Below are positions 33,759 through 43,256 of a stretch of 46,493 bases of DNA, piece after piece. The number at the start of each line of letters is the position of its first letter. Position 1 is the first letter of the stretch. The stretch lies in the NCBI GenBank assembly GCA_030833525.1, contig JAURGZ010000013.1, positions 1-46,493 on the forward strand, written 5' to 3'. Origin of the DNA: Bacteroidota bacterium. Its GTDB lineage: Bacteria > Bacteroidota > Bacteroidia > NS11-12g > UBA955. The translations under genes and the position numbers were made by a program. The notes beneath the pieces are model-generated. The model had not been told where the DNA came from. It ran no database searches and worked only from the letters and a program-made list of their open reading frames with translations.

Positions 33759-34853
33759 TTGATTTGGCAAAGAGTTATCCCGAATTTGTTGACATGGTAC
33801 CGCAGCCATGCTCGCTCCATGCCTTGGCGCGAAACTCGAAATCCTTATCACATTTGGATTTCCGAAATCATTTTGCAGCAAACCCGCGTGGAGCAAGGTC
33901 GTGAATTCTATCTGAGGTTCATCGACGAATTCCCCAAAATTTTAGACTTAGCAACGGCTTCTGAAGAGGCTGTATTGAAGGCCTGGCAAGGCCTGGGCTA
34001 TTATTCAAGGGCACGAAACTTGCATAAGGCAGCTCAGCAAATTGTGCAGGAAATGGGCGGGGAATTTCCGCATGACTATGATCAAATTCGCAGCTTGCCG
34101 GGCATAGGCGATTACACGGCTGCAGCCATCGCATCTTTTGCATACAGCCAGCCCAAAGCGGCCTTAGATGGCAATGTAAAAAGATGGTCATCCCGCTTTT
34201 TCGGCATTCAAACCGAACTGTCTAAACCGGCATTTTCCAAAGAAGTCCTGCCTTTGTTGCAGGTGGGAATCGAAAACAGCGGTGATCCCTATAGCTTCAA
34301 CCAGGCCTCCATTGAACTAGGCTCTCAAATTTGCACCCCCCAATCGCCACGTTGCGAATCCTGTCCTTTGCAAACAGATTGTTTTGCCTATACCCATGGC
34401 CGCGTGAGTGAATTTCCCAAGGTCACGCCCAAAAAAGCACCTCAAATCTGGAATTTACATTTCTTAGCCCTTCGATGGAAAAATGAATGGTGCATCATGC
34501 AGCGCCCGGCCAAAGGAATTTGGGCCAGCCTGTATGAATTTCCCAGTCTGAGTTGCGATACCCCAGAACAAAGCCTTCCCGATGCCTGGGCAGAAGCTCT
34601 GAGTAGTTCAATTAAGGTCCTTGAACACCGCCAGTCGACCCATTTGCTGAGCCATAAAAAAGTACAAGCCCAGTGTTGGTATGCAGAATGGATCGACCCT
34701 GTAATTTCTCCCTTAGACCTGCAGAAAGAGGGCCGCTTTCTTCAAAATATGAGCGATTCAAATAATTCGGAAGTTTGGATATCTTTGAGTGAGTTGCGCC
34801 GCGTGCCGGTGCATCGTTTGATGGATTCATTTATTGACGCATTACCAACATGA
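33759..34853 (+). CDS. mutY: A/G-specific adenine glycosylase
   Basis: Removes adenine opposite 8-oxoguanine in base-excision repair. The 364-residue protein has the catalytic Glu in ISEIILQQTRVEQG, the helix-hairpin-helix with Asp in LPGIGDYTAAAIASFAY ... ALDGNVKRW, and the [4Fe-4S] Cys set C-x6-C-x2-C-x5-C in ICTPQSPRCESCPLQTDCF. A NUDIX-like C-terminal domain for 8-oxoG recognition follows (about 230-360). An in-frame TGA at 33747 leaves TTG 33759 as the first start. The stop overlaps ssb by ATGA. Confidence 0.95.
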   Translation: MIWQRVIPNLLTWYRSHARSMPWRETRNPYHIWISEIILQQTRVEQGREFYLRFIDEFPKILDLATASEEAVLKAWQGLGYYSRARNLHKAAQQIVQEMGGEFPHDYDQIRSLPGIGDYTAAAIASFAYSQPKAALDGNVKRWSSRFFGIQTELSKPAFSKEVLPLLQVGIENSGDPYSFNQASIELGSQICTPQSPRCESCPLQTDCFAYTHGRVSEFPKVTPKKAPQIWNLHFLALRWKNEWCIMQRPAKGIWASLYEFPSLSCDTPEQSLPDAWAEALSSSIKVLEHRQSTHLLSHKKVQAQCWYAEWIDPVISPLDLQKEGRFLQNMSDSNNSEVWISLSELRRVPVHRLMDSFIDALPT

Positions 34854-35260
34854 TTAACAAAGTATTACTCTTAGGTCGATTGGGGAAAGATCCCATCATT
34901 CGTCGCCTGGACAACGGTCGAGTAGTAGCCAACTTGACCCTGGCTACCAATGAATCGTACAACCGCGACGGGCAGCGAATGGAGTCAACCGAATGGCACA
35001 ATTTGGAGATGTGGGACAACCAGGCCAACACCGCAGAGAAGTACATGAAAAAAGGCGATCTTTTGTATGTCGAGGGTAAGATTCGCACCGATCGCTATAC
35101 CGATGCTGAGGGTCAAGAGCGTCAAGTTCGCAAAATTCGGGTGACCAGTTTTCAAATGATGGGAAGCCTCTTGTCCGGACCTCCCAAATCAGGCGATTCT
35201 TCCTCTGAGGCGCAATCTTCGGCCTCGGCTTCTGAAGCGGGTGATGATCTGCCCTTCTGA
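34850..35260 (+). CDS. ssb: single-stranded DNA-binding protein
   Basis: Coats single-stranded DNA in replication and repair. The 136-residue protein has an OB fold (about 1-104, INKVLLLGRLGKDP ... LYVEGKIRTDRYTD), a short Ser/Ala-rich linker, and the acidic tail DDLPF that docks repair enzymes. The start overlaps the mutY stop by ATGA, so repair glycosylase and SSB are made from one message, and the gldE-gldD gene follows after five bases. Confidence 0.95.
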   Translation: MINKVLLLGRLGKDPIIRRLDNGRVVANLTLATNESYNRDGQRMESTEWHNLEMWDNQANTAEKYMKKGDLLYVEGKIRTDRYTDAEGQERQVRKIRVTSFQMMGSLLSGPPKSGDSSSEAQSSASASEAGDDLPF

Positions 35261-35265
35261 TTGGC

Positions 35266-37203
35266 ATGGAGGACCCGGGACCGATCATATCGATGCTGAG
35301 TGTGCTGCGCCCCCTAGATGCAGACGCTTGGAGCCAACTCTTCCCTCTGGGTTTGGGCATGTTGGTGTGCATGACTCTGTCGGCTCTTTGTTCCTCGTCT
35401 GAAAATGCATTTTTCTCCCACAAGGAGAGTGACTTGGAAGATTTGCGCGAAGACCGAAGTGCCTCGGCACGGGCGCTGCTGAATCTCTTGGAAAAACCCA
35501 AGCAATTATTAGCCACCATTTTGGTGCTCAACAGTCTGGCTAACGTAGCCTTCGTTTTGCTTTTCTTGTTCTTCAGTCAAGCCTTATTCAACTTCGAAGA
35601 CCATGCTTGGTTGCAGTTTTTGATTGAGGCCGTAGGCGTAACCTTGATCATTTTGATTTTTGGTGAGGTGATACCCAAGGTTTATGCGACCCAAAACTAC
35701 CGTCAGGCCGCTCGATTTTTGGCCTTGCCCATGCGCGTTTTTCAGGGTCTCTTATGGCCCTTGACCTCGGGTTTGGTCAAAATGGGTAGTGTGTTGGAGC
35801 GCCGCTCCAAACCCCAGTCAAGCGAATTGACGCCTGAAGAATTGTCTGAGGCCATTGACATGACCAGCAGCACCGAAGAAGACGCCGAACAAGAGCGCGA
35901 AATACTCAAAGGAATTGTGAACATGGGCAACATTCAAGCAAAGCAGATCATGCGTTCGCGCTTGGATATGGTCATGCTCGATGAGACCTTGAGTTTTGAC
36001 AAGGTCCTGGAAACCGTTCGCGAAGAAGGCTATTCCCGCATGCCCGTTTTCAGAGGAAGTAGCGACCAAATCATGGGCATTTTGAATGCCAAGCGATTGA
36101 TACCCCATCTCGATGCACCCCACGATTTTGCTTGGCAATCCCTGTGTTCAGATGCCTTTTTCGTGCCTGAAAATAAACCCATCGATGACTTACTGGCTGA
36201 GCTGCGTCAAAAGCGCACCCATTTGGCCATAGTGGTCGATGAATTTGGAGGCACCAGCGGCTTGATCACCATGGAAGACATCTTGGAAGAGGTGCTGGGT
36301 GAAATGGACGACGAATTCGACCGCGAAGACAACCGGGACATTCAGCGCCTTAACGCCCATACCTATTGGGTGGAGGGCAAAGTGTTGCTGGTTGATTTCA
36401 TTCGTGAATGCGATTTGCCACTGGGTGTTTTTGACGATTTGGAATTGGAGTCAGACAGCGTGGCGGGTTTGCTCACCGAGCAATTGGGGCGCATTCCCCG
36501 GCGTGGCGATAAAATAGATGTACAAGGTTTGACGTTCTTGGTAACAGCGGCCGATGCTCGCCGCGTCAAAAAAGTGAAAGTCACGCTTCCTTCCTCAACG
36601 TCATCGCCTGCTTCGTCCATGGCGTCCCTATTTTGGGCCCTGTGTTTGGGTTTGGGACTGGTGGCCTGTGCAGGAGAGGAACAATACGTTCCCAAGCCGC
36701 ATGGCTATCCTCGAATGGTGTTACCGGTGAAGGCCTATCAGGAATATTCCCCGGCCGATGCTCCTTTCTCCTGTCGAATTCCCGCCTATTCGCACATGGA
36801 TTTTGATACTCTTCACACGACTCAAGATCCTTGGTACAACTTGCAATTTCACGGATTCAACGCCACGCTGCACTTGACCTATTACCGAGTGTCTGATTGG
36901 AATTTGTTCGATTCGCTTTTGTTCGATAGCCGTCGATTGGTCTACAAACACCTTCAACGAGCCGATGACATTGTGGAGTTCCCCGTGAGCCAGATCAATC
37001 CCCAAATGAGGGGTTTGGTCTTTGACATTGTGGGAAATACAGCCACCAATCTCAATTTTTTTGTTACCGACAGCGCCCGAAATTTCGTTCGAGGCGCCTT
37101 GTATTTCAATCAACAGACCAACTTGGACTCCATAGCTCCTGCATATGCGTTTCTGCGCCAAGACATCGATACTCTCTTGAGCAGTTTTCGTTTTCGTCGC
37201 TAA
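35266..37203 (+). CDS. GldE-GldD fusion (gliding motility/T9SS)
   Basis: One open frame of 645 residues that covers two proteins normally encoded by adjacent genes. Residues about 1-445 are GldE: DUF21/CNNM membrane segments (LCSSSENAFFSHKESDL), a CBS pair (about 200-330, AIVVDEFGGTSGLITMEDIL) and a CorC_HlyC domain. Residues about 452-645 are GldD: Met452, signal core LFWALCLGLGLVAC with lipobox Cys468, then YVPKPHGYPRMVLP, the GldD start. GldE ends in the cytoplasm, so an Nin-Cout signal and signal peptidase II cut before Cys468 would release a periplasmic lipoprotein. An internal start at ATG 36619 is an alternative. I see no stop or frameshift between the two halves. Confidence 0.9.
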   Translation: MEDPGPIISMLSVLRPLDADAWSQLFPLGLGMLVCMTLSALCSSSENAFFSHKESDLEDLREDRSASARALLNLLEKPKQLLATILVLNSLANVAFVLLFLFFSQALFNFEDHAWLQFLIEAVGVTLIILIFGEVIPKVYATQNYRQAARFLALPMRVFQGLLWPLTSGLVKMGSVLERRSKPQSSELTPEELSEAIDMTSSTEEDAEQEREILKGIVNMGNIQAKQIMRSRLDMVMLDETLSFDKVLETVREEGYSRMPVFRGSSDQIMGILNAKRLIPHLDAPHDFAWQSLCSDAFFVPENKPIDDLLAELRQKRTHLAIVVDEFGGTSGLITMEDILEEVLGEMDDEFDREDNRDIQRLNAHTYWVEGKVLLVDFIRECDLPLGVFDDLELESDSVAGLLTEQLGRIPRRGDKIDVQGLTFLVTAADARRVKKVKVTLPSSTSSPASSMASLFWALCLGLGLVACAGEEQYVPKPHGYPRMVLPVKAYQEYSPADAPFSCRIPAYSHMDFDTLHTTQDPWYNLQFHGFNATLHLTYYRVSDWNLFDSLLFDSRRLVYKHLQRADDIVEFPVSQINPQMRGLVFDIVGNTATNLNFFVTDSARNFVRGALYFNQQTNLDSIAPAYAFLRQDIDTLLSSFRFRR

Positions 37204-40944: not shown

Positions 40945-41694
40945 TTAGTGCGACTCAGAGGCCGTTAACAATTTAGCCCGGTACATTTGAATGGTGTTGT
41001 GCAAGCCCAGGTACAAGGCATCGCAGACCAGAGCATGTCCTATGCTGACTTCAGCTAAAAATGGGATTTGCTCAGCCAAGTATTGCAGGTTGTGAAGATC
41101 CAAATCATGGCCGGCATTGACGCCCAAGCCGCAGGCTTGAGCACGTTGGGCTGTCAAGCGATAGGGAGCAACTGCAGCCTCTCGGTTTTGCGTGTAAGCG
41201 AGTGCATACGATTCCGTGTACAACTCAATGCGATCAGCCCCGGTTTCGGCGGCCGCCTGAACCCAATCGGGCTGGGGGTCTAAAAACAAACTCACCCGGC
41301 AACCCTCAGCTTTCAAATCGCTGACCACCTCTTTCAAGAAGTCCTTGTATTTAGGGGTGTTCCAACCGGCATTGGAGGTCAAAACTCCTGGAGGGTCGGG
41401 TACCAAGGTTACTTGCGCCGGTTGCGCTTTTTTTACCAAGTCCAAAAAGTCGGGACTGGGATAGCCTTCGATGTTGAATTCGGTTTTCAAATGCGGTTTC
41501 AAATCCAATACATCCTGGTAGCGAATGTGGCGTTCATCGGGTCTTGGATGCACGGTGATTCCCTGTGCGCCGAAAGATTCACAGTCCAATGCCACTTGCA
41601 AGACATTGGGATTGTTACCCCCGCGTGCATTGCGCAGAGTCGCGAACTTGTTGATGTTCACGCTGAGTTTGCAAATCGAATTCAGGCTTTCCAT
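40945..41694 (-). CDS. pdxJ: pyridoxine 5'-phosphate synthase
   Basis: Condenses 1-deoxyxylulose-5-phosphate with 3-amino-2-oxopropyl phosphate to make pyridoxine 5'-phosphate (vitamin B6). The 249-residue TIM barrel has [16 protein letters not shown] at the start, [31 protein letters not shown] and [10 protein letters not shown], all canonical. I start at ATG 41694. It has its own -7 box at 41705, inside the end of the upstream barrel gene, which it overlaps by 13 bases. Confidence 0.96.
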
Positions 41695-43256
41695 TGTACT
41701 TGTGCAAACATACGAAGCAATGCGGCTTGCTGAGGTTGCCGAGGGCCCCAGGTGGCTTGAATTTGCAACTCGGCTCTTTTTCCAAGGCTGATTTGGTGGC
41801 AGCCTCGCAGGCAAATTCCATTCCCGCTCAGGGCCATCCATGAGGATTGATAGGGAAGGCTGGGGACTTGGGCCCATTGAATTCCGTCACCCCTGTATAG
41901 CACGCAGGCCAGGGACCTGGTACCCCATTTGACCTTGAGGTTCCATTGGCCTTGCGGTTCCAGGGTTTCCAACGCAGCATGGGGGCCCAATTGGCGAATC
42001 TGAGCGGTCCATTGGAGGTGGTGGTTTTGCGAAGGGGCGGCTAGCGCCCAGCGCAGCTGGGCGCGGGATTGAACCACCCAATTCGAGCCCGATTGACTCA
42101 GTCTAAGGTCCAAACTCCACATGCTCAATTCCCCGGGTTTGGCTTTCCTATGTTCGCTTTTAACACCCAATCGGTTCTGCCAATTCGGCCCCACAAGTGC
42201 TTCCATTTGCCATTGGCTGCTGACATAAACATGCCTCCAGGCAGGGCCTGCATTCCACAACAAAAGGGCCGAAGTTCCCTCGGGCAATTCTTCTTCGGCT
42301 CCTATGCGTGATAACGCGGGCAATCGGCCTGAAACTTGGCTGAATTGCAGCCCCCAATCGCTCCAACGACTCAAGGCCTGGCTGTATTTGAATACCCACG
42401 AACCTGGTCCCCCAAGGCTGACTTTCGCCCATTCCCAAGCCAAATGGCCATACCCTAGCGGCCCTCGCCCCCAAACTTGAACATCGGTGAATCGCTGTTC
42501 AAATGAGGCTTGGGCTTGCCGAAATCCATGCAGACCCCATCCAATACCCCAAATCCAGGCCGGTTCGCGATTGTTTTCAAGTTTGTGGAAACTGCCCTCG
42601 GCAAAAAGCAGCAGACTCCTTTGCCTGAGATTTTCTCTGCGGCTCATGGCTAGCAGACTGCTGCGATCACCCGACAGGTCCAAAGATTGAAACTCACTTC
42701 CTAGGAATCGAGCGTCCAGTTTTCGCTGGCCTGCCGCGAATCCCCAGCGAAGATGTTCACGGGTCCAAGTTTTGCCCAATCCGCGTAAAGCATAGCCCTC
42801 CCGAAACCCCCTGTATGGCTTCAATTGCAGACTCCATTTCTCCATTCCCAAAGGGCTCATTCCCGCGAATGGACTCGACCCTTGACCCCGCATCAATCCT
42901 TGTCCCAGCCAGATTTGCATGTCGCCCAGGACCCAATTTCGGGCACTCGCAGAAAAGCCGCGGTAATCGATCCCTTTTTCAAATGCATCTTTCTGCAGGC
43001 TCAGGGAAAGCGATTCCCCGACCGGGCCTTTCCAAGCCCCTTGCGCTGCATAAGCCCAACCCGAACCCACGGCCCCAACAGGCGCGGCTGCGCCGCGCCC
43101 TATACCCCATCTCCCTTGAAGGGTCCCTGCTGTCCAATCCAGAGACTCCTGCACATCGCTGAGCCAAACCCGAGGTTCCCACTCTACTTGGGCCCAAACG
43201 AGCGGGTAAAAACCCATGCTCAATGCCAAGGTAAGGGTGGTCTTTTTGCCAAACAT
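41682..43256 (-). CDS. outer-membrane beta-barrel like that of HhH-domain proteins
   Basis: A 524-residue protein with a signal peptide ([14 protein letters not shown]) and many short beta segments. It resembles the barrel part of Bacteroidota proteins that carry N-terminal helix-hairpin-helix repeats: the hallmark stretch [17 protein letters not shown] (about 145-161) is followed by [15 protein letters not shown]. No HhH domain is seen at the N-terminus, so this is a barrel-only version. Function unknown; DNA uptake and surface export have been suggested for the HhH relatives only by analogy. Two GC hairpins lie inside the gene (42044-42064, 43081-43099). Confidence 0.75.
41705..41712 (-). 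promoter_or_regulatory. -7 box of pdxJ
   Basis: An exact TATGTTTG on the minus strand, ten bases before ATG 41694, within the 3' end of the upstream gene. Confidence 0.45.
42044..42064. repeat. GC hairpin inside the barrel gene
   Basis: GCGCCCAGC pairs perfectly with GCTGGGCGC (nine base pairs) around a GCA loop. It encodes part of AQLRWALA. Confidence 0.65.
43081..43099. repeat. GC hairpin inside the barrel gene, 5' part
   Basis: GGCGCGGC pairs perfectly with GCCGCGCC (eight base pairs) around a TGC loop, GCA on the minus strand. Confidence 0.6.

Follow-up and report, generated by a model that had tools for sequence, protein, structure and literature searches.

In a 46,493-nucleotide stretch of DNA from a Bacteroidota bacterium (here called the window), GldE and GldD are encoded as one polypeptide, and stop-free fusions of the same kind are present in at least 27 of 395 genomes of the class, spread over at least eight families. 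We propose that the C terminus of GldE is cytoplasmic, that a hydrophobic core at the join acts as an internal signal, and that Lgt and LspA release a lipidated GldD. Reading from sequence, we give this proposal a probability of roughly two in three.

Positions 35266 to 37203 of the forward strand form a single stop-free frame of 645 codons, from an ATG at 35266 to a TAA at 37201 to 37203, and the product runs in order through a full GldE, an 11-residue linker, a hydrophobic core, the lipobox LVA-C468, and a full GldD. The GldE part (residues 1 to 441; 35266 to 36588, + strand) comprises a CNNM/DUF21 membrane domain, a CBS pair, and a CorC_HlyC domain (PF01595, PF00571, and PF03471), with hydrophobic segments at residues 24 to 44, 81 to 110, and 114 to 139. 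It belongs to GldE over its full length by TIGR03520, which matches residues 33 to 441 with 450 bits against a cut-off of 376. The GldD part belongs to GldD by TIGR03512 (residues 462 to 643; 171 bits against a cut-off of 120) and by PF25593, or GldD_lipo (165 bits against 27), and the Pfam matches as a whole are consistent with the NCBIfam assignment of both halves. Between them lie the uncharged linker PSSTSSPASSM (residues 442 to 452; 36589 to 36621, +), which ends in Met452 (36619 to 36621, +), the sole ATG able to start a separate GldD, and a core of residues 453 to 467 (ASLFWALCLGLGLVA; 36622 to 36666, +) with a mean Kyte-Doolittle value of 2.09. Cys468 (36667 to 36669, +) is the predicted site of lipidation and of cleavage by signal peptidase II; it follows a small residue at -1 and the hydrophobic core, and it opens the mature GldD part (residues 468 to 645; 36667 to 37203, +, including the TAA). 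The earlier note had described one open frame covering a full GldE and a full GldD, with a core and a lipobox Cys468 at the join, and both observations were borne out by the frame reading and the family models. GldD usually has its own N-terminal signal with a positively charged n-region and a lipobox, a trait that the models do not demand; here the lipobox is present, the signal is internal, and K and R are absent between Met452 and the core.

Modeled alone, GldD reached a pLDDT of 82, and its predicted fold (36667 to 37200) resembles the PsbP family, the Foldseek match being CyanoP 2lnj (E value of 6.9e-5; TM score of about 0.5). A search of the open-access literature found no paper covering both GldD and PsbP. 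The AlphaFold model of the full-length fusion (pLDDT of 65; pTM of 0.34) was too weak to judge an interface between GldE and GldD; the region from 445 to 484 fell below a pLDDT of 50, and a helix was placed at 453 to 462 within this low-confidence model.

The surroundings of the fusion are those of ordinary gldE-gldD loci. The ssb gene (34850 to 35260, +; PF00436) ends 5 nt upstream, and the order mutY-ssb-gldE-gldD is common to relatives, the mutY side being supported by an HhH-GPD match; the downstream neighbor encodes an OmpA-family protein. No second GldD was found in the window's genome, which is 94% complete, and the only other match was a CNNM/CorC paralogue at 28%. The genome encodes LspA, and among core genes of the type IX secretion system (T9SS) and gliding, GldL and SprA score above their cut-offs, while a GldJ-like gene falls below its own. 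We note that the pdxJ frame elsewhere in the window (40948 to 41877, - strand) has about 70 codons ahead of the PdxJ domain, whose match begins at residue 70, and its true start probably lies further in.

The stop-free join is present in all three genomes of the window's genus. The frames of the other two (L003 from genome G001 and L004 from G002) share 82% amino acid identity with that of the window and are likewise free of stops; as they differ from each other by only two residues, the genus gives two lineages rather than three. The three form one clade on the GldE tree with support of 100/100. Between the window and its sister species, the linker carries substitutions and one whole-codon, in-frame indel, and substitutions at the 10 aligned linker codons are distributed 5/2/5 by codon position, a stretch too short to give a signal of coding constraint. 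The earlier note had itself raised the danger that a stop or frameshift between residues 440 and 455 is masked by a sequencing error, and the window's genome is a draft in 93 contigs. The other assemblies of the genus, however, show the same frame, and 26 genomes of other families show the same arrangement. Because the join is stop free in independent assemblies, sequencing error or chance is excluded, and we regard an artifact as vanishingly improbable. Elsewhere in the window's order no fusion was found, as each other locus that was read has a stop between gldE and gldD. Separately, two metagenome records titled Chitinophaga pinensis (L005 and L009) sit within the window's family on the GldE tree, and their names look wrong.

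Beyond the order, the fusion recurs. The class-wide sample of 395 genomes was searched with GldD alone, and a sample of the same size was then searched with the fused query, with further loci read. The GldD search returned open frames of 644 to 671 amino acids in other families, and each of the 17 candidates retrieved was a chain of GldE, linker, core, lipobox, and GldD without a stop. By family, the fused genomes number at least seven in f82, six each in f81 and f106, three in f66, two in f60, and one each in f61, f75, and f1; the total of 27 is a lower bound taken among the matches listed, from which weak matches are absent. Automated open-frame lengths merge neighboring matches, and each fusion was therefore re-read from sequence. 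Apparent fusions in G013, G019, G261, and G446 were rejected on re-reading because they contain stops, and G051, G085, and several others have in-frame neighbors separated by one or more stops. In G019, moreover, the 3' part of gldE (locus L034) contains 72 N and a frame break, and the locus was left out of the fused count. A survey of the order and a first survey of the phylum had suggested a single genus-level event, an impression that came from which families had been sampled and that the wider class searches overturned. The earlier note knew of no description of this arrangement, which is not a one-off but recurs in at least eight families. We found no published description of a GldE-GldD fusion or its internal lipobox in the open-access literature.

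The earlier note had also proposed that fusions be sought across genomes and mapped on a tree. On a GldE tree of 70 rows, 11 changes between the separate and fused states are needed, and at least 10 are forced by well-supported branches. Most of these look like gains. One locus of f106 (L180 in G743) is a separate pair with an ATGA overlap nested in a fused clade, and it may be a reversal of fusion. In f60, fused G652 and separate G545 share 88% DNA identity on either side of the join; the sequence at the join has been replaced, and the fused copy lacks the ATG of gldD.

The gldE and gldD genes overlap at 37 of the 61 loci of the whole set, and in near relatives the overlap is usually 1 to 20 nt and out of frame, which we infer to be a sign of translational coupling. 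In a few pairs from other families, and in G085, gldD lies in the gldE frame with one stop between. Loci L057 to L061, L042, and L032 have such a single stop and a spacing of 0 to 21 nt, and losing that stop would be enough to fuse each of them. The fused gene would have arisen from overlapping or adjoining genes once the gldE stop and the frame break had disappeared.

Whether GldD is also, or solely, started at the ATG at 36619, leaving the open join incidental, is a question that the earlier note had posed against itself. Both lineages of the genus retain Met452, and the frequent overlaps mean that gldD begins inside the end of gldE in many relatives. The start context of Met452, however, scores -7.66; each of the genome's 48 confident starts does better, and about 95% of 890 internal ATGs equal or exceed it. 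The equivalent Met of L003 and L004 is nearly as poor (92% of internal ATGs). Since GldE's own ATG is also poor (-4.45), the start-context test has limited power. The n-region argues in the same direction: among 59 distinct separate GldDs, 55 carry K or R after the nearest start, a count that rises to 58 when alternative starts further upstream are admitted, whereas the window and L003 have none. The window lacks K and R over the 28 residues ahead of Cys468, a weaker signal than that of most fusions; because 24 of the 27 distinct fusions do have K or R in the linker, the absence characterizes the window's genus rather than fusions as a whole. Finally, 18 of the 27 lack a Met 13 to 40 residues before the Cys, and in four (L121, L124, L154, and L179) no ATG, GTG, or TTG occurs 13 to 35 residues before it, such that their GldD can be made with a signal only from the precursor. 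Thus, a separate start at Met452 is weakened for the window and impossible for its counterpart in those four, and we consider internal initiation quite improbable. For the window's genus we infer a single translation product, together with its topology, lipidation, and cleavage.

How the chain would be processed follows from its order. One polypeptide would be translated from the fused gene, and the GldE part would insert with its C-terminal CBS and CorC_HlyC domains facing the cytoplasm, as expected from the topology of CNNM proteins, which puts the Bateman and C-terminal modules in the cytosol (PMC6429129). That orientation fits an internal N-in/C-out lipoprotein signal at residues 453 to 467, which would export the GldD part through the inner membrane. 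Lgt would then lipidate Cys468, and LspA would cut before it, freeing an ordinary lipidated GldD; the GldE left behind would end in a short tail inserted in the membrane. Alternatively, the chain might stay intact, with the core as a transmembrane helix and GldD permanently tethered 1:1 to GldE in the inner membrane. The core is hydrophobic enough to serve equally as an anchor, fusion by itself would be enough to couple the two proteins, and its recurrence suggests that cells tolerate a stable complex. An anchor would not need a lipobox, however, and a Cys with A, G, or S at -1 is retained in 27 of 27 distinct fusions, across many independent changes and in the deep clades f81 and f82 whose cores have strongly diverged; moreover, LspA is present. 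We therefore think a permanent tether unlikely. The N-in/C-out signal followed by signal peptidase II, as the earlier note had it, stands as the most economical reading of the encoded LspA and the retained lipobox, although the cut itself is a prediction. The note's term "self-cleaving" is wrong, as LspA would make the cut, and the equal amounts of GldE and GldD that it expected would follow only if cleavage were complete and the products equally stable.

The function of GldE is poorly known. The genes have switched between separate and fused some 10 times, which is strong comparative evidence for joint action of GldE and GldD in the membrane, and an arrangement that recurs is of more interest than a unique one. 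Repeated fusion suggests that the two proteins function jointly, with the usual lipoprotein signal peptidase cutting the chain. Should the fusion be processed, it would be a natural polyprotein with signal peptidase II as its protease, and it would fix the topology of the GldE C terminus relative to GldD. We find it somewhat better than an even chance that GldE-GldD is a recurrent bacterial polyprotein matured by LspA at an internal lipoprotein signal and that the two parts act as a unit, which would place GldE in the lipoprotein-dependent assembly of the T9SS and gliding machinery. GldD is required for the stability of GldJ and GldK in Flavobacterium johnsoniae (PMC9127263).

The nearest known system is the separate gldE-gldD pair, for which F. 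johnsoniae is the reference (Hunnicutt and McBride 2001, as cited in PMC9127263). Separate pairs share with the window the same two proteins, their order, the mutY-ssb-gldE-gldD neighborhood, and the lipobox, whereas the window has no intervening stop, no good start for gldD, and an internal signal. The GldE part also shares its CNNM, CBS, and CorC_HlyC domains with the CNNM/CorC membrane proteins, but none of the listed relatives of solved structure has an attached lipoprotein. A further parallel is FbcH, the cytochrome b/c1 precursor of Bradyrhizobium, which pairs a membrane protein with an exported one in a single precursor that is split at an internal signal peptide; our search of the open-access literature found no description of it. 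The window's fusion is a single frame, and four other fusions lack a usable internal start, which would fit one product with an internal export signal. GldE-GldD would then work in the manner of FbcH, as a membrane protein and an exported one in a precursor with a predicted cut at the internal signal. The two differ in that FbcH has a nonlipoprotein signal and delivers a c-type cytochrome, whereas GldE-GldD has a lipoprotein signal with a predicted signal peptidase II site, and the protein families are unrelated.
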